From contig PCWG01000002.1 in NCBI GenBank assembly GCA_002787235.1, forward strand, positions 59,250 to 123,249: 64,000 nucleotides of DNA, in the 5' to 3' direction. A program made the position numbers and the translations under genes. The notes beneath the pieces were generated by a model, which searched no databases, was not told the DNA's origin, and saw only the letters and a program-made list of their open reading frames with translations. The stretch is from Nitrospinae bacterium CG11_big_fil_rev_8_21_14_0_20_45_15 (lineage in GTDB: Bacteria; Nitrospinota; Nitrospinia; Nitrospinales; VA-1). Below are positions 5,886 to 24,573 of the stretch, piece by piece (position 1 is the first letter of the stretch; each line of letters starts with the position of its first letter).

Positions 5886-6323
5886 ATGGGAGTACCTGAA
5901 CTGATAGAAAGCATCGGTTTTTATAACCTGGTCCAATTGGATGAAATTATTTTTGGACTTCCCATGGGACTCGGAGCCGTTGAGTTGAACGTTGAAAAGA
6001 TCAATAAACATCCCTGTGCTTTTGTGGGTAAAACTCTGGAAGAAGTCATAGAAAAGATTCGCCTGAACGATGCGCTGTCCAAAGAAAAGTACGAACCGAT
6101 TTTGAAAGATGTATTTGGTTTTTATAATATTCTGGGTTGGGGTGCCGACTTATACGGCGTTCCCGTTAGTTTGGGCGAGATAAATTTACATACCATCAAA
6201 ATCAGTGATTATCCTGGCATTATTAAATCATTTTACAGGGATGATTTAATAAAAGAAATTGAAGAATTTTGTCGGTCAGAACACAGAAAGATGCGGGATC
6301 TGTCAGCCGGAAGAGAGCAATGA
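5886..6323 (+). CDS. Small stand-alone protein made almost entirely of two 63-aa-type repeats
   Basis: IGFYNLVQLDEIIFGLPMGLGAVEL and FGFYNILGWGADLYGVPVSLGEINL; no additional catalytic domain visible. Confidence 0.8.
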   Translation: MGVPELIESIGFYNLVQLDEIIFGLPMGLGAVELNVEKINKHPCAFVGKTLEEVIEKIRLNDALSKEKYEPILKDVFGFYNILGWGADLYGVPVSLGEINLHTIKISDYPGIIKSFYRDDLIKEIEEFCRSEHRKMRDLSAGREQ

Positions 6324-6324
6324 T

Positions 6325-8322
6325 ATGACAAGTTTGAATACATTGCCATTGGAAGAATTTGGTTTGCCTGAAATAGTGGAGATAGAGCCGATTCATTCGT
6401 GCAATTTTCGTTGCATCCAATGTCATGTCAGTTATGAAACCTTAACGAAAAACAAAATCCGGCCAGATTTTTTTAAAAATCTCAAAGGACTTGAGGGCAA
6501 ATGGGCTTTGCTGGGATCGTTGTATGAACCGACGGTACACCCTCATTTCCGGGAAATCGCTCAAGGTCTGTCTGATGCAGGGATGAAGTTGGAGATGACG
6601 ACCAACGGCTCGTTATTCAATGAGTCGCTGGTTAAAGACGTCGCCCATTGCAATTGGAAGAATGTGATTTTTTCCTTCGATGGAATTACGAAAGAGACTT
6701 TTGAGAAAATTCGCAGAAGGGCCGATTTTAAAAAAACTCTTGAAGGGATCAAAAGATTCAAAGACGGTATTGAAAATAAAGATACTTTTTTTGCTGTGAA
6801 CTTTACTCTTTTGAGAAGCAACTTGCATGAAATCGTCGACAGCGTTGACTTCTGGGAGGATTTCGGCGTGGATCATCTGGGTTTCATTGCCATGGTGTTG
6901 CGCGATGAGAATAAGGAACTTCAAGAAGAATGCTTGAATCATGACTTGGTGGAATTAAAGACAGAGCTAGAGTTGGCGGCTAGAAGAGTGGTTGAGAAAC
7001 AATATAAAATCACACTCTCCAGTGCGGCATACAGTTCTTGGATGGATTTGAAAGATATTTATCCTGCGCATTTCATGGAGAGTCTGGTCAAGTCAAACAA
7101 CCGCAATGCCAGGACTCCATTCAATGCGAGAACCTATTACCAAAATGGGCATTTCCCAGGAATGTCCGTCAATTGCCGATCTCCTTTTAAATTTGCAAGG
7201 ATTGATTACAACGGCAACGTCGAGCTTTGCTATCAATTTACGGTAGGAAATATTTATAAAAATGAGTTTTTAGATATCTGGTACGGTAAAGAAGCTCAGA
7301 AAGTGCGGGATTTGGTGCGCTCGGATCCTAAAGTTTGTTATTCCTGCGACTATTTCAGATTCTGTATAAAAGCCGGAGAAGTCGATTACGACAAAGAAGC
7401 AAATTTCCGCAATGAAACCATAGACAATTATTACAACAAGCCGTTTTTAGTCGAAGATAAGGGGTCTTATCAACTGGTGGGTTATGGCTCAATGATTTAC
7501 GGATTCCCAAAATCTATGGGAGATGTTGATCCCAGGTTTCTTGCTGAATATGAAAATAAACCAGGTGTCTTTGTTTGTGCCACCACTGAGGAAGTCAAAC
7601 AGAAGATTGACGAATATTTTGCTTCGATAGATAAATCCGAATGGATTCCTATAGAGATTGACAACTGGATCGCTCATAAAGTCGTGAGTTATGGCCCTCA
7701 ACTTGTTGCTATCCCCAAGGGCTATGGGAAGATTGTACTGAATGCGGAATTTGATTTTAACGCACCGGGTATTTTCATTGCGGACGATGTGGAAACACTG
7801 CGAAATGCAGTGGATACTTATATCAAGACCGTCAATATTTCAGAATTAATGCCCACAGTAATAGAGCAAATTTCTGGTTACAATATTGTTGAATGGCAGA
7901 ACAATTTTTATGGCATTCCTTTTACAAGTGGGCAGGTTGATTTGGTTGGAGCAACCTCCGATGAGATTTCTAAAATACCTGGTGTGATTAAAAGCGCATC
8001 TCTGAATATGATCAAAGATGAATTACGAAAACTGGATTTCGAACCTGAATTTATAGAGCTCTGTTTGCACCTTGGTTATAATGCGATTTATTTCGAGGGA
8101 GTGTTTTACGCAATTCCTCACTCCATTGGCAAGGTAGACCTCAGCAACCCCGCAGAGAGAAAACATCCCGAAATTATTTCAAGTTCAGACAAAAATAAAT
8201 TTCGCCGTGAGATCATATCAAAAACTTACGCCTATCCTCTTTTGAGGCGATTTCTTGGGGATTTTGGCTACCGTACTTTAAAAGGCTGGAAAATTAAATT
8301 ATTGGGTTCTGGAAAATTATAA
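6325..8322 (+). CDS. Radical SAM protein with SPASM-like C-terminal Cys cluster, followed by four 63-aa-type repeats
   Basis: CxxxCxxC: 'HSCNFRCIQCHVSYE'; later 'CRSPFKFARIDYNGNVELCYQF...CYSCDYFRFC'. Start set at ATG 6325 (ORF track opens at 6259, overlapping the previous gene). Repeats include 'SGYNIVEWQNNFYGIPFTSGQVDL' and 'LGYNAIYFEGVFYAIPHSIGKVDL'. Confidence 0.88.
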   Translation: MTSLNTLPLEEFGLPEIVEIEPIHSCNFRCIQCHVSYETLTKNKIRPDFFKNLKGLEGKWALLGSLYEPTVHPHFREIAQGLSDAGMKLEMTTNGSLFNESLVKDVAHCNWKNVIFSFDGITKETFEKIRRRADFKKTLEGIKRFKDGIENKDTFFAVNFTLLRSNLHEIVDSVDFWEDFGVDHLGFIAMVLRDENKELQEECLNHDLVELKTELELAARRVVEKQYKITLSSAAYSSWMDLKDIYPAHFMESLVKSNNRNARTPFNARTYYQNGHFPGMSVNCRSPFKFARIDYNGNVELCYQFTVGNIYKNEFLDIWYGKEAQKVRDLVRSDPKVCYSCDYFRFCIKAGEVDYDKEANFRNETIDNYYNKPFLVEDKGSYQLVGYGSMIYGFPKSMGDVDPRFLAEYENKPGVFVCATTEEVKQKIDEYFASIDKSEWIPIEIDNWIAHKVVSYGPQLVAIPKGYGKIVLNAEFDFNAPGIFIADDVETLRNAVDTYIKTVNISELMPTVIEQISGYNIVEWQNNFYGIPFTSGQVDLVGATSDEISKIPGVIKSASLNMIKDELRKLDFEPEFIELCLHLGYNAIYFEGVFYAIPHSIGKVDLSNPAERKHPEIISSSDKNKFRREIISKTYAYPLLRRFLGDFGYRTLKGWKIKLLGSGKL

Positions 8323-10571: not shown

Positions 10572-13500
10572 TTACCGGTAATCACCCGTGAGATTGAACG
10601 CCGCCCAGTACGCAGGGTGTGGGTAGAGCGTTTTCACCAATGCCTGCGCCTTGCGTAGACTTTCGGCCTTGTTTTCTGTGACATAATTCCTATAAAAATG
10701 TTTGGTGAGAATCGCCGTGGAAATGTCACTGACTCTCCAGAGAGATGATAGCAAGGCATGCGTACCTGCGTAAATGAAAGCACGGTTCAAGCCCACCACA
10801 TCGTCGCCGCCGCTCAATTCGCCAAGCCCCGTTTGACAACCGCTCAAGGTTACCAGATCCGCATTGATCTTCATCGAGAAGACCTCATTCACTTCCAGAC
10901 TGCCATCCTGAGCCAAATCGCGTGTCAGCTTCAAGGAAGAGAACAGGGGATTGATGGGGTCAAATTCTCCATGGGAAGCAATGTGAATGATTTGATAGTC
11001 CCCTATATGTTCGCGTATCCAGCTTTCTTTCGCCCGGTCCCGAGTTAAAATATCGATTTTTGGAAAGTCCCATTTGATGGCATTGGCTTCCATTTCGGCG
11101 AGAGGTAAATCGTAATTAAAATCTCCAAGGTCAGGATTTCCTATAGCAAGCACACGAATGTCTCCGTCCTTTTTGAGATTTTTTCGCGCGAAGGTGTATT
11201 GCAAAACCGAAGCACTTGGAGAATAGAAGAGCGGCCATTTTTCGAATAAATAAGCGTTCCCATCGTTCAAGGATGCAAAAGAAATATAATGCAAGTGAGA
11301 GTGAGGGATGATTCCCAAGACCTTTTTTTGCAAAATCAAAGATTCAATCGGGCGGATTAACAAGTCGTAGAGTTTGAGTGTGACTTCCTCCACCGGAGCC
11401 AGTTTTTGTATCCGGGTTCGATAGTCATGAATCAGCGCATTCAAATCCTTTTCATTGTAAGGCACGCGAACAACGTCGATTTTTTCTTTGGTGACTACCC
11501 ATACAACCAATTCATTTGGGGTTTCCAAATATTCAATGAGCGCGACAGAATCATCCAATAGAACTTTTAGATTTTCAAAGCCAATGGATTCAACGGTGAC
11601 AAAACTAGATATCTGTGGACTGGAAGCCTTGGCTTCGATCAGCAAATCCTGATAGGAATTGCGGGCGGAAACCAATTGGGTAGAGAAACTCTTGATTTTT
11701 GCTTCGTCTGCCTGCTCGCGGGCCTGCGTCATATCGTCTTCAATGGTGCGGATCAATTGTTTTTGACTTTGCAATTGATCGTAGAGTTTTTGGCCCACGT
11801 CGTTTTTTAAATTGATCTTTTGATTGCCCAATAAATCGATAAAACTTCTGGATTTAGAACGCTCTGCGTAGTCGAAAGATTCGGCGACTTTTCCAAGATC
11901 CAGAAGTAGAAGTACGAGTTCCTGATAAACTTCCTGCTTGTCCGTTAAAAATCCATTTTGAAATTCCTCGACTTTGATTTCAGCGCGCATCTGGTCAACC
12001 GTGGCGACTGCCTTTTTATAAATTTCAACTGCCTGCATGCTTTTCTTCATTTGGACCAGACAAAACGCTTCGCCTCTCAAAGCCCGCCACAACACTTCAG
12101 GAATATTCAAGCGCTGCGCAAGTTCGGCTGTTTTTTGAAATTGCATGACAGCGGTTTCCCACTCAGCATGTTGCAGAGATAGATTACTACGTTCAAGCAG
12201 GGCTTTGACGAGATTGGTTTGGTTGCCAATCGACTCGCTCAATTGAATGGCAAGCTCGATGTGCTTGCTGGCCAAATCCAACTTGCCCAGGCGCAGATAA
12301 CTCATTCCCATATTGCGATGTGTGTAACCCTGGCCCCATTTGGATTTCGACTTGAGGTCGTATTCCAGGGCTTTTTCAAAAAAGGTGAGAGATTCTTCGT
12401 AGCGTTTGTCTTTTCGGTAAACAAGCCCAATGTTATTGTAAGCAGAGGCGACTTCAGTCAATGAAGGAACCTTTTGAGCCAACTCAAGACTTTTATTTAA
12501 ATTGTTGAGAGCCCTTTGCGAGTCATTCAGCGTCCAGTGAATCAAGCCTAAAGTATTGTAGATCAGAGTTTGTTGATGCAGGTCATTTACTTCCTTGGCG
12601 ATGTCCAGAGCCTGCTTCTGGAATTGAAATGCTTTTTGATAATCGGCTTGATACCAGTGCGAATTGGCTTGATAAAGCAGTGCCCGTGACAAAGTTTTTT
12701 TCAAATTGTTGGTTTTGGCAAGAGTCTCTCCTTGTTTGTAAAACTCAAGCGCGTGTGCAAAATCGCCACGCTTTTCATGGATCAGTCCCAGCTCCAACAA
12801 TGTTTCGGCTGTTTTTTCGGGCTCGTTTTGAAGTGAAAATATGGCATGAGCCTGATTGAAATAATCTTCCGCTTCGCTGTATTGATTGAGTCGCAAATAA
12901 TAAATCCTGCCGATTCTGCGTAACTCCGTTGCGCGGTCGACTTCGGAATTTAATTGTGAATGCAGACTTTCCGATTTCTGAAAAGCAGTCAACGCTTCCT
13001 GATAGTTCAGTGCGTTTTCTTCCACGAGCCCCAATTGGCTGTAACTCTCTGCCATTTCCTGCAATGCCTTTTCTCCCCCAAACAACTCAAGAGCTCGTTT
13101 TAAATGTCCGATTGCGGTTGGGTAGTTTTCAATGAAGGAATTGGAAATTCCGAGAAAACGCTCAATGCGGGCTAGCTCGTCCATATCTTTATTGGCGGTG
13201 GCAATGGGAATCAAACGTTGCTCGTACTCAATCGCCCGCTGGAAATCTTTCATGTTAAAGGCAGATTCAGCGAGTTTTTGATACAGAGCGGGAACCAGTT
13301 TATTTTCGGGAATATACTCTGCTAGAAGAAGTGCTTTTTCAAAATAATTGATTGCTGATGCCCAATCGCTATTTTTAAAATCGCCCACACCCAGCCCGGC
13401 ATTTTTTTTGAAATGATCGCGTGCAAAATTTAGTTTCGCTTCTTCCGACATTTCTGGAAATCCGTAATAGCGATAATGGGCCCATTCCAGCGATTGGGTT

Positions 13501-16500
13501 GTATTTTTTGCGAATTCCAATTGGGTTTTACGTAAAGCCTCGGCAGGGCCGACCTGTCGCAATTTCAGATAAAATGATTTCATGAAAGCCGAATCCGTTG
13601 GTCCATCCTCTGCATCGGTACGTAGCAAAACACCGGGATAACCCTTGAAAGTGAGCGCGTGCAGGAGCGGGGCAGATGGTGACAGTCCCAGATTGGTATC
13701 GATTTCATAACGTATATTGGGAAGCACTAACAAGCGCGAGCTTACCGAGGGTGTGTACAATTGTTGGGTCGGGATGCTTTGCAGATCATTGGGATTGGAA
13801 GACACTCGGATTCTTCCCGCAGACGTGCCATTCAAAAAAGAGGTTCCTCCAATTTGAATACTGCCATAGCGACTCCAATCTTTCATGAACTGATTGTGGG
13901 CCTGATCGTTTTGCGGGATTCTTTTCACCGCACTGAAGTTCCCTTCATTATTTAAAGCGCAATAGGAGGGAATGCCTTTCGCATTATCAGTTTGAATGGA
14001 CTGCGAGTCACTGGTTTCGTCGCAAGTGTTATTGGCAGGGACTAATAACAAGCGTGAATCGTATAAATTATTTTTTGCCTCGGCAAAGCGGAGATGAGAC
14101 AAGGAAGAGAAGTAAACCAAACGCATCTTTTCAATCAAAATATGATCGTCAAGGCGCATTGCAGACCAGGGCAAAAATTCCAAAACACCATCGGCGGAAA
14201 GTAGGAGTGTCTCCGTTGTCTTCATCGTTTCGCTGATGGGTGTCAAGAGTTCTCGTGAAAGCAAGGCGATGTCTTCTTGACTGGGCGATAGTCCGTGCCG
14301 ACCAACGCGGTCAATGGCATCAAACAAGGCCCTGTTCATCGGGATGCGTTTTCCTTGCACATCCTCATCGTGTAATTCAAAGACCAGAATGCTGTTGCCT
14401 GTTGATTGGAATTTTATCAGCGTTTGTCCAGGTTCCAGCAATCCCCGAATCAAATCAAGATCCGGCACTTGTGCGGAATACATTGCGGACAGTTCAGGAA
14501 CATCCTCCTTCACCATTGCCATGAAATCGGAATACTCTGCGAATATCGCATCAAGCGGCTCATTCGCATCGGAGATTCTTTTTGCTTCTGCTGAAATGCG
14601 ATTGATTTCTTCTGCATATTCGGCACGCGTTGCATCTTCAAAATCGAGAGCCGGTCGCAAAGCAATCAATTGCAACTGTCGTCCTTTTTCCGAGAAAATC
14701 AGAGACTGTTCCATCTTTCCTGCTGAAAAATATGCTTCTGTTAAAGAACGATACAAATCACTCATAAGAGCAAGTGATGGCTCATCTTTTGGAATCAGGG
14801 AATACGGCAATTGACTCAGCAAATGGTCTGCTGTTTCCAGAGCCTGAAGATTTTCCTCACCTTCTTTGAATAAAGATTGGACAAAATGATATTGCCATCG
14901 CAAGGGAACAGGGGGTTGGATGACTTCTGTCTGTGATTTTGTGCCAATCAGGTTGTGTATCAAATTCAGATTCTGGCGGATCATGACAGACAGCTCAGCT
15001 GTCTGTGGATCGCGCTCTGAAAGCACAGCAAGGGCCTGCTCAAAGTATTGGATGCAACGCTGTGCATTGCGAAAAACACGATCCCCTTTTTCTAGAGCTA
15101 GAGAAAGGCTTTTAGCGGGATCTTGCTCTGCGTTCGATGGCAGGGTGTTCTGCTCAGCAAAGGCCTCGTAATAATAAATGATACCCAACAGATTTTTTAA
15201 GATCGCGATGTGTTTGCGTTGAGCTTGAGTGGGTACGGCATCAAAGGCTTGATCGGTTGTTTCCATCAATAAACGAACTGAATCGAGTTGCCCTGAGATT
15301 TCCTTGTAAGGAGTGTTGCGTGCTGAAGCCAATACCACCTGGCCCATATTGGCGGCGTTGACCCAGGAGCCCCAGTGATTGTTCAAGGCCATTGACAAGG
15401 TGTGAGACTGGCGAAAATAGTCAAGCGATTGTTCGGGTTTGCCCCAGAGCCAGTAGTAATTGCCGATTTGATTGAGTAAGAGGGCTTTTTCTAAAATAAC
15501 CGGAACATTTTTTTCTATATCGAGATCTTTTGGGATAAGACTCAACTTATTCTCGAAATTCTTTATGGCAAGATCGTAGCGTCCAAAATCTCCGTAAATT
15601 TTACCTACGTAATGAAAAATGAGCTTTCTTTCACCGGTCTCATCGAAGCCCATAGCGGCTGTGGAACTGTTTGCACCCAGTCCGGTTTCCAGAGAGACAC
15701 CGATCAAGCCCTTACTTTCTTTGGTTTTTTTGATCGTTCCATATTTCCCGAGAAGATCCACTGCCTCGAAATAATGACTCAAAGCCTGGTGCAGAGTTTG
15801 TGGATCTTTATCACCAGATTCTTCACTGAGGGCATAAATATTATTTGCGATATTACGCAATGCACGTGAAATAGACTGCGTGTTGTTGGCATCACGATTG
15901 AGGTTCAGAGTACGTGTGAAATAATTTATCGCATTGGCATAGTCCCCTGCATCTTGATAGGCAAGGGCGATTCGATCGTTGAGTTCGGCAATGCGAGTCT
16001 CATCCTTTTTTTCCTCGTAAATCTTGAGGGCTTTGCGGAATTCGACGATAGCGGTGTCCTGCAAGCCTACCTTGAAAGAACTTTCACCAAATCGCTGATG
16101 ATAAATCGCTTCCCGGTCGGCAATGTAAAAGGGTTGATCCGATCGCTTGCGATAATAATACAAGGCCGTCTGATGATTGTTCAGGAGGTAATGCGCATTG
16201 CCCAGATTCAAGTGCAGGTCTGCGGTGTTTTGAACATTCCCTGTTTCCTCACTCAGCATAAGGGCGATTTCGTATTCATGAATGGCCCGCTCCAGATAAC
16301 CTTTATTTTTGATGTCGCGCTCTTTTTGCTCATAGAGCCAGCCCAGAGTTTGATGAAAAAATAACTGCACGGCATCTTTGGAGAGTGCCGTACCGATTTC
16401 TTTTTCAGCCTGATTCAGATCAGGAGGCGTCAAATAGGTGAGAGAAAGGCCCAGTGCGTAATGATCGACCGCCGAATCGGGATTTGCTTTCAGACGGTCC

Positions 16501-18614
16501 CGATAAAAATTGATATTATCCGAAACTTTATTGAGTGCCGCTCCGGCTTGAATATAACCCCGATGCGCTTCTACGACTTCGGGTGCATAAGCGATCAAGC
16601 CAGCGAAAGTTTTACGTGCGAGTTTGATTTCATTGACACGAATCTCCCAGGTTCCCTTTTCGATCCATTTTGTGATTTTCCCTTTACGAGCGGCATTGAT
16701 GCGCTCTTTCAGGTTCGCTGAACCGTCAAATATTTTTTCGTAAGCTTGCAGGCTTTGGTCGAAATTTTCTTCATTGGCGTAGATCTCTGCCAGTGCCATT
16801 TGAGCTGAAAATACTTCTTCGCCGATTTCGGGGTATTTTACAATGGTGGTTTTGTAGGCTTCTTTTGCCAGTAACGATTCATTATTTTTTGCGTACAAGT
16901 AACCGATTCGATTTTGTACTGCCGCGACCAGCGTGGGAAGTGTTTTGTATTCAAGAGTCAATTGTTGCAGGTTTACGATTTTTTCTGCAAACGTTTGCGG
17001 CGTCTCAAAAAGATCCAGTATCTCTTGAGTGGCTTGTTGACGCCATTTTTTAACATCATAATAATCCCGGATGACTGCAACGAAGGATGCGATCAGACTT
17101 TTACGATCGCCTACCAGCTTGTAGATATTGCTTTTGTAAAAAGCGGCCTGGGCAGAATAGATTTTTTGATCGGGAAACTGCTTGATCACTCGATCGAAAA
17201 AATCCAATGCACGGACCGGGTCCTTCAATTCACCATACAAACGTCCCATCTCGACATAAGCTTTGGCCACGACGGCATGTTCCGATTGTTTGGCGATTTC
17301 GCTCAAGGTCATGAGGGCCGCGTGGATCGCTTTTTCGTGCGCTTGCGGTCCAGCATTTAGGGAAGCTTTTAATGACAAGGTAGCCAGTTCTATGCGCGAC
17401 AAGCCGGTAACAGCGGGTTGATCGTTGTAGAGAGTGACAATTTTATTCAAGATAGAAAGAGCCGAGCTGTCTTGTCCCAGTTCACGATAGGCCTGTGCCA
17501 GCGCAAGGCGTATGGCGTTGAGCTTGTTCTCTCCTTTAAAATCCTGAATCGTATTTTTGTAGATCAGGACACATCGGGCCGATGCCAGATTTTCAGGTGG
17601 GCACAATTCATTGATCGAATTCATGGCTTCCGAAAAATTCGCCGCTTTGGGGAAAATGCCTTCCAACGGGAGCGATTTGATGGCTCCACCATTTTGGGTT
17701 TGCTCAGTGTAGAAAATCCGATCCCCTGCAAAAGCGGGAAGCAGGTCGTAACTGTCTGAGGCGGTTAATTGTCTTTCGCGTCCAGCCTGACCGTTTGACA
17801 ACTCAACGCTGAAAATATTGGGGTTGTCGTCAATGGTCAACTCCCCGTCGCCGTTCGTATCATCCTCATAGCGAGTGAAAACGATGAGCTTCTCATCCTG
17901 CGACCATTGTGGCGATAAGTTGATTGACGTGCCAGAGGTGATGGCTGTCAGGGCCTGAGTTTTTAAATCCATTAACCATATATTTTTATCATGAGCGAAG
18001 GCCAGGCGCGAGCCACTGGGTGATAGCGCGGGATCAAGCCCTGCTTCTTTCATGACCTGGGTCCGTTTTCCCGTGGCCAGTTCTATTTTGTAAATAGATT
18101 TTTCCAGACCGTTGGGCTCGGTGGACGCAAAATAAATGAATTTTTGATCGGGTGACCAGGCCGGATGTGAATCGGGCAAATCTTCTTGTGTCAATCGAAC
18201 GGGTACCGGCAAAGAAGAGGAATCGGCAATATCCATAATATACACATCGCCACGAGGGTCGTTCCTATTGGAAATAAAAGCCACCTTCTTGCCATCGGGG
18301 CTCACCGCGGGGGAATTGTCTTCGGTGCCATGAAAAGTCAGACGTCGGTCGAGGCTAGGCAGTCCGGGACTCAATTCTTTCAACCACAAATCCAGATTGC
18401 CCGAACGGTCGGATACATAGACCATTCTACGAGCATCTGCTGAAACAGAAGATGCAAAATTCTGTCCCGGATTTGCAGTGACAAGGATGGGCGTGTGAAA
18501 GGGTTCCCTTTCCTCTGCAAGCACCAGAGAGTTTCCCAAAGTCATAAGAAGAGGGAAAGGAAGGATGAGTCGAAGGAGACAAATAGGATATTTCATATTA
18601 TTCGTATTTGGCAC
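10572..18614 (-). CDS. 2680-aa exported protein: signal peptide, TolB/WD40-like propeller, TPR array, degenerate CHAT domain, second TPR array, canonical CHAT domain
   Basis: N-terminal hydrophobic signal; 'ADARRMVYVSDRSGNLDLW...NSPAVSPDGKKVAFISNRNDPRGDVYIMDI'; numerous TPR units; C-terminal 'IIHIASHGEFDP...LVTLSGCQTGLGELSGGDDVVGLNRAFIYAGTHALLSSLWRVSD'. Confidence 0.9.
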   Translation of the reverse strand: MPNTNNMKYPICLLRLILPFPLLMTLGNSLVLAEEREPFHTPILVTANPGQNFASSVSADARRMVYVSDRSGNLDLWLKELSPGLPSLDRRLTFHGTEDNSPAVSPDGKKVAFISNRNDPRGDVYIMDIADSSSLPVPVRLTQEDLPDSHPAWSPDQKFIYFASTEPNGLEKSIYKIELATGKRTQVMKEAGLDPALSPSGSRLAFAHDKNIWLMDLKTQALTAITSGTSINLSPQWSQDEKLIVFTRYEDDTNGDGELTIDDNPNIFSVELSNGQAGRERQLTASDSYDLLPAFAGDRIFYTEQTQNGGAIKSLPLEGIFPKAANFSEAMNSINELCPPENLASARCVLIYKNTIQDFKGENKLNAIRLALAQAYRELGQDSSALSILNKIVTLYNDQPAVTGLSRIELATLSLKASLNAGPQAHEKAIHAALMTLSEIAKQSEHAVVAKAYVEMGRLYGELKDPVRALDFFDRVIKQFPDQKIYSAQAAFYKSNIYKLVGDRKSLIASFVAVIRDYYDVKKWRQQATQEILDLFETPQTFAEKIVNLQQLTLEYKTLPTLVAAVQNRIGYLYAKNNESLLAKEAYKTTIVKYPEIGEEVFSAQMALAEIYANEENFDQSLQAYEKIFDGSANLKERINAARKGKITKWIEKGTWEIRVNEIKLARKTFAGLIAYAPEVVEAHRGYIQAGAALNKVSDNINFYRDRLKANPDSAVDHYALGLSLTYLTPPDLNQAEKEIGTALSKDAVQLFFHQTLGWLYEQKERDIKNKGYLERAIHEYEIALMLSEETGNVQNTADLHLNLGNAHYLLNNHQTALYYYRKRSDQPFYIADREAIYHQRFGESSFKVGLQDTAIVEFRKALKIYEEKKDETRIAELNDRIALAYQDAGDYANAINYFTRTLNLNRDANNTQSISRALRNIANNIYALSEESGDKDPQTLHQALSHYFEAVDLLGKYGTIKKTKESKGLIGVSLETGLGANSSTAAMGFDETGERKLIFHYVGKIYGDFGRYDLAIKNFENKLSLIPKDLDIEKNVPVILEKALLLNQIGNYYWLWGKPEQSLDYFRQSHTLSMALNNHWGSWVNAANMGQVVLASARNTPYKEISGQLDSVRLLMETTDQAFDAVPTQAQRKHIAILKNLLGIIYYYEAFAEQNTLPSNAEQDPAKSLSLALEKGDRVFRNAQRCIQYFEQALAVLSERDPQTAELSVMIRQNLNLIHNLIGTKSQTEVIQPPVPLRWQYHFVQSLFKEGEENLQALETADHLLSQLPYSLIPKDEPSLALMSDLYRSLTEAYFSAGKMEQSLIFSEKGRQLQLIALRPALDFEDATRAEYAEEINRISAEAKRISDANEPLDAIFAEYSDFMAMVKEDVPELSAMYSAQVPDLDLIRGLLEPGQTLIKFQSTGNSILVFELHDEDVQGKRIPMNRALFDAIDRVGRHGLSPSQEDIALLSRELLTPISETMKTTETLLLSADGVLEFLPWSAMRLDDHILIEKMRLVYFSSLSHLRFAEAKNNLYDSRLLLVPANNTCDETSDSQSIQTDNAKGIPSYCALNNEGNFSAVKRIPQNDQAHNQFMKDWSRYGSIQIGGTSFLNGTSAGRIRVSSNPNDLQSIPTQQLYTPSVSSRLLVLPNIRYEIDTNLGLSPSAPLLHALTFKGYPGVLLRTDAEDGPTDSAFMKSFYLKLRQVGPAEALRKTQLEFAKNTTQSLEWAHYRYYGFPEMSEEAKLNFARDHFKKNAGLGVGDFKNSDWASAINYFEKALLLAEYIPENKLVPALYQKLAESAFNMKDFQRAIEYEQRLIPIATANKDMDELARIERFLGISNSFIENYPTAIGHLKRALELFGGEKALQEMAESYSQLGLVEENALNYQEALTAFQKSESLHSQLNSEVDRATELRRIGRIYYLRLNQYSEAEDYFNQAHAIFSLQNEPEKTAETLLELGLIHEKRGDFAHALEFYKQGETLAKTNNLKKTLSRALLYQANSHWYQADYQKAFQFQKQALDIAKEVNDLHQQTLIYNTLGLIHWTLNDSQRALNNLNKSLELAQKVPSLTEVASAYNNIGLVYRKDKRYEESLTFFEKALEYDLKSKSKWGQGYTHRNMGMSYLRLGKLDLASKHIELAIQLSESIGNQTNLVKALLERSNLSLQHAEWETAVMQFQKTAELAQRLNIPEVLWRALRGEAFCLVQMKKSMQAVEIYKKAVATVDQMRAEIKVEEFQNGFLTDKQEVYQELVLLLLDLGKVAESFDYAERSKSRSFIDLLGNQKINLKNDVGQKLYDQLQSQKQLIRTIEDDMTQAREQADEAKIKSFSTQLVSARNSYQDLLIEAKASSPQISSFVTVESIGFENLKVLLDDSVALIEYLETPNELVVWVVTKEKIDVVRVPYNEKDLNALIHDYRTRIQKLAPVEEVTLKLYDLLIRPIESLILQKKVLGIIPHSHLHYISFASLNDGNAYLFEKWPLFYSPSASVLQYTFARKNLKKDGDIRVLAIGNPDLGDFNYDLPLAEMEANAIKWDFPKIDILTRDRAKESWIREHIGDYQIIHIASHGEFDPINPLFSSLKLTRDLAQDGSLEVNEVFSMKINADLVTLSGCQTGLGELSGGDDVVGLNRAFIYAGTHALLSSLWRVSDISTAILTKHFYRNYVTENKAESLRKAQALVKTLYPHPAYWAAFNLTGDYR

Positions 18615-18859
18615 AATGGCCTGATGAGCAGGTATTTCATAAATTGCAGACCTGCATGAATGTGATCACTTAATTTTGAGTACGCCTGACCCTGTAATAT
18701 TGAAGATAACTAAAGCGAGATAGTAAATCAACGCAGTCATGAATTTCCCTTTGCAAAGCGAAATACAAACATTCCCTTGAAAAAAGATGTGAAATACTAT
18801 AGAAATTTACTACATATAGAGCTTTTGAACACGAACTTTCCTAATTTAGCGATGGTTGC

Positions 18860-20404
18860 ATGAATTTTAATATCGATTTTTCCGACATGTATTGGATTGC
18901 CCTGGGCCCGGAATTAACTATTTTATTCACGGCTTTTTTTCTATTGTTGATTGGATTGAAACAATCATTTGATACGAACGAATACCTGTCCAGAGCGGCT
19001 ATGGGGGGGATTTGCGTCGCGTTATTTTTCTCGATATCCCTTTGGATTTCGGCACCCGGTGCGGAAAGTGCTGTGAATCCGGAAATGTTCAGTGCTTCGT
19101 TGATTCATGACCGATTCTCGCAGATTTTTAACATTATATTTTTGATCATGGCCATGTTTGCCATGGCGGGTTCGGTTCGTTACCCGCAAGCCGATCATAA
19201 AAATAAGGCAGAATATTTCTGTCTGGTATTGACTGCTGTCGCGGGCATGATGTTCATGGCCAAGTCGGGGACATTGATCACCGCGTTTGTTGCCCTCGAA
19301 GTGTTTTCAGTTTCATTATACATCTTGTGTGGATTTTCTGCCAAACATGGTACTGGCACCGAAAGTCCATCCACCGCTCCTCCATTGAGCTGGGCCACCG
19401 CGGCGTCACAAGAATCTGCCGTTAAATATCTGCTCACAGGAGCTTTCGCATCTGCCATCCTGGTTTACGGTATGGCTCTCGTCTATGCCGGCACTGGAAC
19501 GACAGAGATTCGCCTCATAGGGCGATTGTTGCATTGTGAAGGCATCGATTGCGGCAATCCCTACAGTCACAATCTTCTTGTGTATATGGGGATGGCTCTG
19601 ATGTTTGTGGGCCTGGGCTTCAAAGTATCGTTGGTTCCTTTTCACTCATGGACGCCGGATGTGTATCAAGGCGCACCGACACCGATCACCGGATTTATGT
19701 CTGTGGCTACGAAAGCGGCGGCATTCGCATTGGTAGCACGTGTTTTCTTCTCAGCATTTCAGGATATCCAGGAAGTGTGGATGCCTATCCTGTTCGGTAT
19801 TTCAGTGATCACCATGTTTGTGGGTAATATTGCAGCGATTTTTCAAAATGATCTCAAACGATTGTTGGCATACTCCGGTGTTGCCCATGCGGGTTATCTG
19901 CTGATTGGTATTGTTGCCAACAGTAATGACGGTATCGCTGGATTGATCTTCTATCTTGCCATTTATTTGTTCATGAATGTGGGAGCTTTCGCCATTGTGT
20001 TCACTATGGAAGGCGAGGGGAAAGAAGGAAATTCCATCTACCGTTTTAAAGGTTTGGCCAAAAAGAACCCTCTGCTGGCTGGAGCGATGAGCCTTTTTAT
20101 GTTGTCTCTTGCAGGATTCCCGCCCACAGCCGGATTTTTCGGGAAGCTTTTTCTGTTCACAGCGGCTATCGATCAGGGCTATGTGCTTTTGACCATATTG
20201 GCGGCGATTGCAACAGTCATTTCCGTCTATTTTTACCTGCGTATCATCGTTCTGATGTATTTTCATGAAGATGAAAGTGTGCAAATTGTCGAAGTTTCCA
20301 GAGGCATGGCGGCCCTCATCACAGCAAGCACGACGGCCATTATTTTCTTTGGATTTTTCCCGTCCGTTTTAATGAGCTGGGCGAGTGCCTCAATTCCATT
20401 TTAG
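18860..20404 (+). CDS. nuoN: NADH-quinone oxidoreductase subunit N
   Basis: 'KVSLVPFHSWTPDVYQGAPTPITGFMSVATKAAAFALVARVF' and 'FQNDLKRLLAYSGVAHAGYLL' typical of NuoN. Confidence 0.92.
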   Translation: MNFNIDFSDMYWIALGPELTILFTAFFLLLIGLKQSFDTNEYLSRAAMGGICVALFFSISLWISAPGAESAVNPEMFSASLIHDRFSQIFNIIFLIMAMFAMAGSVRYPQADHKNKAEYFCLVLTAVAGMMFMAKSGTLITAFVALEVFSVSLYILCGFSAKHGTGTESPSTAPPLSWATAASQESAVKYLLTGAFASAILVYGMALVYAGTGTTEIRLIGRLLHCEGIDCGNPYSHNLLVYMGMALMFVGLGFKVSLVPFHSWTPDVYQGAPTPITGFMSVATKAAAFALVARVFFSAFQDIQEVWMPILFGISVITMFVGNIAAIFQNDLKRLLAYSGVAHAGYLLIGIVANSNDGIAGLIFYLAIYLFMNVGAFAIVFTMEGEGKEGNSIYRFKGLAKKNPLLAGAMSLFMLSLAGFPPTAGFFGKLFLFTAAIDQGYVLLTILAAIATVISVYFYLRIIVLMYFHEDESVQIVEVSRGMAALITASTTAIIFFGFFPSVLMSWASASIPF

Positions 20405-21645: not shown

Positions 21646-24573
21646 TTACTGAATCAGTTTTTCAAGCCTGCCAAATAGAGATTCAGATTTCTTAATTTTA
21701 TCCTCACCGCCGATCACGCAGATTTTCCCCTTGTCACGGATTTGTTCGAAGAGAGGTGCAAATCGACGCAAGTCTTCAAGTGTGGTCGATAGCAGTTCTT
21801 CGCGACGCTGTTGCTTTAATTCGTATGTTTTTCCGGTCAACTGCTCAACCATTGCAATGCTTCCCTTACGATCGGCACTCAAAGGTGGGTCCAGGCGTCC
21901 GACACAGCCAATGATCGTTTTGGTCAGTTCTTCTTTCGATAAATCGAGCTTAGAGAGAAATTGTGCGGTCTCGTCATAGGCTTTCAATGTTTCTTCCAGA
22001 TTGGGATCTCGATAGGAAACGAAGCTGTAGTCCCCTGTCAAAGCATCGAAAGAGCTCATGCACCCGTACGCTCCACCTTGTACTCGGACGCGATCCCATA
22101 AATAGGATGCACTGAGCAGAGATTTTAATACGGACCATTTCCCAGAGTATTCATAACCCAGATCGTAAAGATTAGCTCCTTTACCGACGTACTGAATCGT
22201 GCTTGCGGACATGAATCCTTCGTTGACGGCAGGATCGGGGAAAATCAATTCGCTGACGAGAGGCGCAGATTTTGGGAAGATACTGGCCAGAGCGAGTGTC
22301 TTCCCTTCGAAACGAGCATAGTCTTTTTCTTCTCCGGTCAGGTTGACCAGCATATTGTCCTGACAAAATATCATTTTAGCGATTTTTCGGAATTCTTCGG
22401 CAACCGACTCAGGATCTTGTTCGGCACGCTCGAGAAGTTTTTCCAGAAAATGGTAACTGCTGATGCCGTCGGTCAATTCATTGTAACGTCCCAATTGTGA
22501 ATGATACGATTGCAGTCGGGACAGCACATATTGATTGCCGTGGGGAATGAGAGAATCTTCCATGTCCGACTTGGCACTGCGGATCAATTCTACCAACCGT
22601 TTGGAATTGTCAAAATTGTACTCGCCCAATAATTCAGTGATAACGTCGTACAGGTCGTCGAGTTTTCCCATCAATCCACGCCCGCCAAAAAACAAATACG
22701 AAGTGATATTGTGACGGTCGGATGTTGTGGCACTGGTAAAGTGCCAGGGGCGAATCCCTCCGGTATGAATTCCCATGCGCTGAGACATGGCGACGTAGTC
22801 GCGTTTGTTGGTGCCCATTCCCATAATCATTGTGCCAAGCAGGGACAGGTAGGGAAGTTTTTCCATGGGAACGCATTCGGTGTTGAATCCTATTTGCGTG
22901 TAGGCGATTTGGTTGGCAAACAAGTCGTGAAATAAAATTCTGGGTCCCGATTCCTTTTTTTGCTCATTGGGGAATCGCTCGCTTTCATGCGGGATGTCTT
23001 CTAGCCCTAATTGCGGAAGGGTCGCAAGGGATTCCGGTGAATCGGGTGTCGCTTGCAATTCTTGCAAGCGTTGAGTTTCCTTAATCAAGCGGTCGATCTC
23101 TTTTGTACCCAGAGTTGATTTGATATCCTGTAATTTTTTTTCTATTTCTTTCGCTTGTTTTGCAGAGAGACCAGGCTCTGGAATCATCACGATTTGACTT
23201 TGGTCATTATTAGTCAGGAAACCTTTTCTTATCAAATTCTCAAAATATCCGTTTTTAGACTCTTGCTTGATTTTTTCCATCAAGTCGTTGTAACGCAAGT
23301 GCATCAGCGGGTCTGCGTCGTACAACCAGGACGACATGGATTGCATGTTGTAGACCACGCCTTTTGAAAATCCACCAAAATTGGCTTCGCGGAGTTTGAA
23401 GTCGTAAGAATTGACAGCAGAAAGAATCATATCCTCATCAATGCCTTCTTCTGCCAGCTTTTTGAGTGTGGATTGGATGATGTCTAATATTTTACTTTCA
23501 TGCTCGGGAGCAGTTCCTTTCATTCCCACTGCGAAAATAGTTTCGAGACGATTGTCATCGAATCCACCACCAATGACTTCGCTTCCCAGCTCGGAATCCA
23601 TCAGTGCTTTTCTCAAAGGGGAGGCTGATGAGCCCATGAGCAAGTGACTCAATATGCTGAAACCGAGACAATGCTCCTGGTCGGATGCCAGACCGAGTCG
23701 ATAACCGACAATAAAAAAAGTTTTTTTCTCGGTAGATTCTTCAAGCGCGACGGGGTAGTTGAATTGAATGCGACGCGGTTCTGCGAAGGGTGCTTGTTGG
23801 GAAATGGCAGAGTTTACATCCATTTTTTTGAAGTCTTTTAAATAATCATTTTGCAGGTATTGCAGGTATTCCGAGGTGTCGCCGTTGCCGTACAGGAATA
23901 AATAGCTGTTTGAGGGATGATAATATTTCCGATGAAATTCTTTGAACTCTTCATAAGTCAAGTCGGGAATAGCGTCGGGGTCTCCACCGGATTCAAAACC
24001 ATATATCGTGTCTGGAAACAGGGAATGCGCGAGGCTACGGTCGAGGATGCTCTCAGGACTTGAGAATACGCCCTTCATTTCGTTGAAGACAACACCCTTG
24101 TATTCCAGAGCCTTGTCGGCACCCGCTAATTCATAGTGCCAGCCTTCCTGCTTGAAAGTATTTTCGGAGATTTCAGGGTAAAAAACGGCGTCGAGATAAA
24201 CTCCCATCAAATTGAAGAAATCTTTTTTATTCCGGCTGGCTACGGGATAGAGTGTCTTGTCCGGGAAGGTCATGGCATTGAGGAATGTTTGCAAGCTTCC
24301 TTTCATCAATTCCATGAAGGGTTCCTTGACCGGGTATTTGCGTGATCCGCAGAGGACGCTGTGTTCCAGTATGTGCGCGACGCCGCGATCATTTGCCGGC
24401 GGTGTGCGAAAACCCGCGCTGAACACTTTGTTGTCGTCGTCATTTTCTAAAACCAGAACGCGGGCACCGGTGACTTCGTGTTCAAACCGAAGGGCCAGAG
24501 AGTTCAGTTCGTCGATGGTTTCTTTTTGCAGAAGTTTGAATCCGAAATAGGTTTGATTGAGTTCGAAGCTCAT
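21646..24573 (-). CDS. M16C-family zinc metallopeptidase (presequence protease-like)
   Basis: Inverted zinc motif HILEH in 'DRGVAHILEHSVLCGSRKYPVKEPFMELMKGSLQTFLNAMTFPDKTLYPVAS'. Confidence 0.93.
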   Translation of the reverse strand: MSFELNQTYFGFKLLQKETIDELNSLALRFEHEVTGARVLVLENDDDNKVFSAGFRTPPANDRGVAHILEHSVLCGSRKYPVKEPFMELMKGSLQTFLNAMTFPDKTLYPVASRNKKDFFNLMGVYLDAVFYPEISENTFKQEGWHYELAGADKALEYKGVVFNEMKGVFSSPESILDRSLAHSLFPDTIYGFESGGDPDAIPDLTYEEFKEFHRKYYHPSNSYLFLYGNGDTSEYLQYLQNDYLKDFKKMDVNSAISQQAPFAEPRRIQFNYPVALEESTEKKTFFIVGYRLGLASDQEHCLGFSILSHLLMGSSASPLRKALMDSELGSEVIGGGFDDNRLETIFAVGMKGTAPEHESKILDIIQSTLKKLAEEGIDEDMILSAVNSYDFKLREANFGGFSKGVVYNMQSMSSWLYDADPLMHLRYNDLMEKIKQESKNGYFENLIRKGFLTNNDQSQIVMIPEPGLSAKQAKEIEKKLQDIKSTLGTKEIDRLIKETQRLQELQATPDSPESLATLPQLGLEDIPHESERFPNEQKKESGPRILFHDLFANQIAYTQIGFNTECVPMEKLPYLSLLGTMIMGMGTNKRDYVAMSQRMGIHTGGIRPWHFTSATTSDRHNITSYLFFGGRGLMGKLDDLYDVITELLGEYNFDNSKRLVELIRSAKSDMEDSLIPHGNQYVLSRLQSYHSQLGRYNELTDGISSYHFLEKLLERAEQDPESVAEEFRKIAKMIFCQDNMLVNLTGEEKDYARFEGKTLALASIFPKSAPLVSELIFPDPAVNEGFMSASTIQYVGKGANLYDLGYEYSGKWSVLKSLLSASYLWDRVRVQGGAYGCMSSFDALTGDYSFVSYRDPNLEETLKAYDETAQFLSKLDLSKEELTKTIIGCVGRLDPPLSADRKGSIAMVEQLTGKTYELKQQRREELLSTTLEDLRRFAPLFEQIRDKGKICVIGGEDKIKKSESLFGRLEKLIQ

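Follow-up and report, generated by a model that had tools for sequence, protein, structure and literature searches.

A conserved CHAT unit without a catalytic dyad accompanies a dyad-bearing CHAT in a giant, predicted exported protein of Nitrospinota and other bacterial phyla

The window analysed here is the whole stretch of 64,000 nucleotides taken from a metagenome-assembled genome of Nitrospinota, a group which includes marine nitrite oxidisers. On its minus strand lies an open reading frame at 10572-18614(-), which is open for 2680 codons from a GTG at 18614. Translation probably starts at the ATG at 18594-18596 (residue 7) rather than at this GTG, because with the ATG the signal peptide lines up with those of the orthologues. 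The hydrophobic core and the small-residue cleavage site are kept in nearly all orthologues in which the N-terminus is covered, and export of the protein, which had been claimed in an earlier note made from the sequence of the window, is thereby supported; the open reading frame and the two catalytic codon positions given in that note proved exact on re-reading. The giant protein is thus predicted to be Sec-exported and to be located in the envelope, either in the periplasm or facing outward.

The protein consists of a signal peptide, a TolB-like β-propeller, a first array of TPRs, an internal CHAT domain, a second array of TPRs, and a C-terminal CHAT domain, in this order. The propeller at residues 41-330 was absent from the earlier note. 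It is matched by the TolB model TIGR02800 with an E-value of 5e-35 and, by its sequence, it is TolB-like and not TolB, since the score of 121 bits falls below the equivalog cut-off of 343 bits. Both TPR arrays are colinear in the relatives, and the profile matches of the first array extend to other phyla. The two CHAT domains are separated by about 600-700 residues, mostly TPR, and their spacing is nearly constant in 30 orthologues and across phyla. The coordinates of all features are collected in the table.

Table. Features of the giant gene and of its neighbours in the window.
Feature	Coordinates	Strand	Basis or remark
Giant coding sequence, likely ATG start	10572..18596	-	about 2674 aa; orthologue signal-peptide register
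Predicted Sec signal peptide, residues 7-33	18516..18596	-	conserved hydrophobic core and small-residue cleavage site
TolB-like β-propeller (PD40 repeats), residues about 41-330	17625..18494	-	PF07676 in 4 stretches
First TPR array, residues about 360-1340	14595..17537	-	PF13424 and other TPR families
Internal pseudo-CHAT (PF12770), residues 1450-1717	13464..14267	-	Pfam, hhalign, AlphaFold, Foldseek
T1591 at the catalytic His position	13842..13844	-	hhalign register and alignments
I1634 at the catalytic Cys position	13713..13715	-	hhalign register and alignments
Second TPR array, residues about 1760-2290	11745..13337	-	PF13424 and other TPR families
C-terminal CHAT (PF12770), residues 2414-2678	10581..11375	-	Pfam; Foldseek
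His2548 (IIHIASHGEF), codon CAT	10971..10973	-	present in 30/30 Nitrospinota orthologues
Cys2593 (TLSGCQTG), codon TGT	10836..10838	-	present in 30/30 Nitrospinota orthologues
nuoN-like gene, divergent neighbour	18860..20404	+	context only; conserved in Nitrospinota
PreP-like M16C metallopeptidase	21646-24573	-	beyond nuoN and a TPR gene

The giant gene is preceded by a divergent nuoN-like gene in all 24 Nitrospinota loci with enough upstream sequence. In the window the gap between the two genes (18614-18860) measures about 250 bp, and no promoter-like site was found when it was examined; some relatives have an extra open reading frame of about 310-390 aa inside the nuoN gap. The other neighbours encode a cytochrome c, glycosyltransferases, a TPR protein, and the PreP-like M16C peptidase. 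Several stand-alone CHAT proteins of Nitrospinota (L095, L096, L097, L100, and L101) have signal-peptide or lipoprotein-like N-termini, and exported CHATs therefore seem to be usual in this group.

Few regions of the protein are as well conserved as the C-terminal CHAT. The His/Cys dyad formerly assigned to it, H2548 and C2593, was recovered at the same codons, and the domain is likely to be an active protease in this organism. In Csx29, the CHAT unit is composed of a pseudo-caspase, CHAT1, placed before an active caspase, CHAT2 (PMC10028731). If each CHAT unit is built in this way, the giant protein would hold four caspase-like subdomains and a single dyad, that of the C-terminal CHAT.

The internal region, which had been described as CHAT-like, is a true CHAT domain according to both profile comparison and structure prediction. 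Indeed, the Pfam model PF12770 scores above its cut-off in both domains; the internal match alone reaches 44.9 bits (E 1.3e-11; cut-off 24), and the model detects 28 of the 30 orthologous internal domains. When the leading strands are included, the internal CHAT begins near residue 1396. The hhalign comparison of the internal and C-terminal CHAT families gives an E-value of 8.7e-21 over 337 columns, and it aligns T1591 and I1634 with the catalytic His and Cys, in the same register that had been proposed by eye. Structures were predicted domain by domain. The AlphaFold model of residues 1330-1770 has a mean pLDDT of 77.6, with an unreliable insert at model residues 191-236, and its best Foldseek matches are Csx29/TPR-CHAT (E 7e-11), separase, and DdvA; SAVED-CHAT filaments are matched weakly. 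The model of the C-terminal CHAT, used as a control prediction, has the same neighbours (Csx29/TPR-CHAT, separase, and DdvA). The fold prediction, which the earlier note had chosen as a check of its reading, is therefore CHAT-like. Sequence searches of the PDB with the two domain profiles returned TPR or chance matches only, and the CHAT relatives emerged by structure search. Both CHAT models also match chains of the ciliary C1 central apparatus (7n6g, 7sqc, and 9ijj), which are possibly noncatalytic eukaryotic relatives of TPR-CHAT and separase.

With T1591 and I1634 at the catalytic positions, the internal domain lacks the dyad by which a CHAT protease is recognized. The same absence is found throughout the family. 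The Nitrospinota alignment comprises 30 complete or almost complete orthologues, the copy of the window among them, and in these the internal dyad is present in 0/30 and the C-terminal dyad in 30/30. The more distant G003, from another family of the same class, has the same pattern. Over six phyla, none of 61 homologous internal domains (30 + 1 + 9 + 21) has the dyad, so that no orthologue restores it; a restored dyad was what the earlier note had named as refuting its reading. The C-terminal dyad is present in 57 of 63 domains, being missing from L125, L193, and L196-L199, and it is found in 23/23 of the stand-alone CHATs used as a comparison set. A His at the internal catalytic column of L191 was taken as chance, as there is no Cys and the close relative L192 is without the His. 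The internal region is eroded in L126/L167 and L128/L178, where it is missed by Pfam and recognized only weakly by hhalign (E 2e-11 and 3e-8); among these four, L126 alone enters the count of 61.

The internal CHAT evolves faster than the C-terminal one, with a mean column identity of 52% versus 79%. In close pairs, its dN/dS is 0.07-0.15 compared with 0.06-0.10 for the C-terminal CHAT; its motifs LE.LPW and G.PG are invariant within Nitrospinota, and the frames remain open across nearly all Nitrospinota copies. The domain fits the definition of a pseudoenzyme, that is, a fold which is kept under selection and from which the catalytic residues are consistently absent. The claim that a dyad-less CHAT stands in cis with a dyad-bearing one is thus borne out by fold and alignments, and the presence of a conserved noncatalytic CHAT in this arrangement is almost certain.

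A first scan of genomes gave 31 loci, nearly all from Nitrospinota and one labelled Nitrospirae, and suggested that the family was restricted to Nitrospinota. This restriction was overturned by profile searches of other phyla. A profile of the internal domain, applied to 387 genomes, found giant frames with the parts in the same order elsewhere, and the colinear giant is now recognized in Nitrospinota and five other GTDB phyla. It occurs in 7/14 genomes of one phylum, in four genomes that were read in a large phylum, in one of the two genomes of a third, and also in a phylum of five genomes. In a phylum of 82 genomes, at least 37 have a frame that reaches or exceeds 2600 aa, and the full layout was found in all 20 giants that were read. 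In most relatives outside Nitrospinota, the profiles of propeller, TPR, pseudo-CHAT, TPR, and C-terminal CHAT match colinearly.

In three trees built with the dyad columns removed, the internal CHATs group together as one clade (SH-aLRT 98, 97, and 99). The AU test rejects a local duplication in the 82-genome phylum (p 0.0027), whereas for the f129 lineage it does not (p 0.155). The CHAT tree alone is no proof, because the pseudo-domains are long branches and may be joined falsely; full-length colinearity of the sequences speaks more strongly for one old family. The earlier term "duplicated" for the TPR-CHAT architecture is not borne out in the sense of a local duplication, as the internal CHATs have a clade of their own. 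Subject to the caveat of long branches, the trees and alignments show a loss of the internal dyad that would have preceded the divergence of the six phyla or the exchange of the gene among them. The absence of the dyad from 61 domains, the single clade, and the low dN/dS together identify the internal CHAT, as far as sequence can tell, as an ancient and conserved pseudo-CHAT under purifying selection and not as a product of recent decay.

Some relatives depart from the common pattern. The six in which the C-terminal dyad is missing, among them L125 with its giant at L125:4045-12363, are dyad-less in both CHATs and have no predicted active site left, from which it appears that proteolysis is dispensable in some lineages. 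In L130 (genome G120), the frame at L130:1861-7308 contains propeller, TPR, and pseudo-CHAT and ends right there, and the internal dyad is again absent; the following gene resembles ADP-glucose pyrophosphorylase in a reading of its sequence. This form with the N-terminal half only is known from a single assembly, and phylum mates of G120 carry the full-length protein; either this half protein is natural, or it reflects an artefact of assembly or mutation in one genome. Since the pseudo-CHAT persists in these cases without a live CHAT in cis, it probably acts as a binding module or a scaffold. It may control the live CHAT in addition, but such control cannot be its sole purpose, given the six doubly dyad-less relatives and the ending of L130 at the pseudo-CHAT.

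Taken as a whole, the protein is best explained, with somewhat better than even confidence, as an exported scaffold-sensor protease of the TPR-CHAT/separase type which includes a conserved pseudoprotease unit. In such a protein, the giant would be exported by Sec to the periplasmic or outward side of the envelope, where the propeller and the TPR arrays may bind an envelope partner or a damage signal. The pseudo-CHAT would most likely dock a substrate or partner, or brace the neighbouring TPR superhelix, and it would thereby set when the C-terminal CHAT becomes competent. The C-terminal CHAT, as sole bearer of the dyad, would be the likely proteolytic output. That the pseudo-CHAT works by binding a ligand or partner is reasonably probable, whereas switching of the cis protease is doubtful as its main job.

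A cis allosteric switch is the alternative that fares best, although it is held to be the less probable account. The pseudo-CHAT and the live CHAT would pair, either in the same chain or from one chain to another, and the former would toggle the activity of the latter as FLIP(L) does with caspase-8. Both CHATs are indeed found in one chain at near-constant spacing, in the 30 orthologues as well as across phyla, FLIP(L), whose inactivating changes are conserved, offers a precedent (PMC7586951), and oligomeric CHATs are known, such as the SAVED-CHAT filaments matched weakly in the fold search. However, the intervening 600-700 residues, the six relatives with a dyad-less C-terminal CHAT, and L130, where no CHAT follows the pseudo-CHAT, argue against a switch in cis.

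The same six members without any dyad could instead indicate that the giant as a whole acts in the envelope as a structural component or an adaptor, with proteolysis secondary or lost. Structural proteins, namely the chains of the ciliary central apparatus, are among the Foldseek matches and point in this direction, and propeller-TPR proteins such as PG1058 serve envelope machines (PMC5053529). This explanation is considered unlikely, as the C-terminal dyad is kept in 57/63 domains and its CHAT is among the best conserved regions.

An anti-phage suicide protease, of the CRISPR Craspase or the gasdermin-activating type, is suggested by the nearest solved folds, which are those of Csx29/TPR-CHAT from type III-E CRISPR, but it is very improbable. 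The protein has a signal peptide, unlike the type III-E TPR-CHAT proteins, and none of the ten neighbouring proteins checked with Pfam and PADLOC is a Cas protein. The neighbours are housekeeping genes (nuoN, the PreP-like peptidase, and glycosyltransferases), and the conserved position beside nuoN is unlike that of defence islands. At the locus, PADLOC identified no defence system and gave nothing beyond TPR models of a generic kind and one weak match to radical SAM, so that a defence locus is unsupported; in the loci that were read, outside of any systematic search, no linkage to Cas7-11 or gasdermin genes was seen. The radical SAM/SPASM protein concerned, at 6259-8322 (+) in the window, matches viperin weakly (E 2.6e-12), which is probably generic radical SAM similarity.

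Recent decay of the internal CHAT as a relic being lost, which its faster evolution and its bad erosion in a few lineages might suggest, is extremely improbable, and recent pseudogenisation was ruled out, as the loss is the same in 61/61 domains of six phyla with no intact internal dyad, the motifs are invariant, the frames open, and no dN/dS is near 1.

TPR-CHAT proteins are known chiefly as intracellular death or defence proteases. The scaffold-sensor reading of the giant points to proteolysis of the separase kind in the bacterial envelope, a field in which little is known. More tentatively, the family may represent hitherto undescribed, exported "envelope separases" of several phyla, in which an ancient dead CHAT is dedicated to docking a substrate or signal for a live CHAT in cis; if this is true, it would be a protease switch outside the cytoplasm, in which one of four caspase-like subdomains holds the only active site. 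The family in any case offers a natural and well-sampled test of pseudoprotease units fused to live relatives, including natural doubly dyad-less cases and one case of the dead unit alone. The open-access literature yielded no account of a tandem CHAT protein whose first unit is dead, nor of exported propeller-TPR-CHAT proteins, which is weak evidence of novelty.

Among the known systems, Csx29/Craspase is the best Foldseek match for both units and shares with the giant a CHAT unit that comes after a TPR superhelix, but it has one CHAT unit and about 700 aa, is bound to Cas7-11, is intracellular, and is without a propeller. Separase, which also matches both units, is large and built of helical repeats, with a CHAT-like protease at its C-terminus; unlike the giant, it is eukaryotic and intracellular, contains one protease unit and no propeller, and is regulated by securin. 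DdvA of Myxococcus xanthus (8rot and 8rw5) is a bacterial, membrane-associated CHAT protein matching both units, and its alignment retains the dyad positions (ATHG and ACEG). It differs from the giant in being a transmembrane anti-sigma factor of 991 aa with one CHAT unit and without the propeller-tandem architecture. TolB and proteins of the PG1058 type, the latter a propeller and TPR protein of an envelope machine (PMC5053529), resemble the giant in their PD40/TolB-like propeller, their export, and their richness in TPRs, and they are without CHAT domains. Dead relatives of live proteases are known from FLIP(L), in which a dead caspase fold is conserved alongside caspase-8 (PMC7586951), and from CspBA, in which a live and a dead protease are joined in one chain (PMC12880746); FLIP(L) acts in trans, whereas CspBA belongs to the subtilases and is cleaved to give separate proteins. 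A dead and a live caspase fold in cis are already known, since every CHAT unit has CHAT1 and CHAT2; what is new here is a whole second CHAT unit which is dead and kept across phyla.
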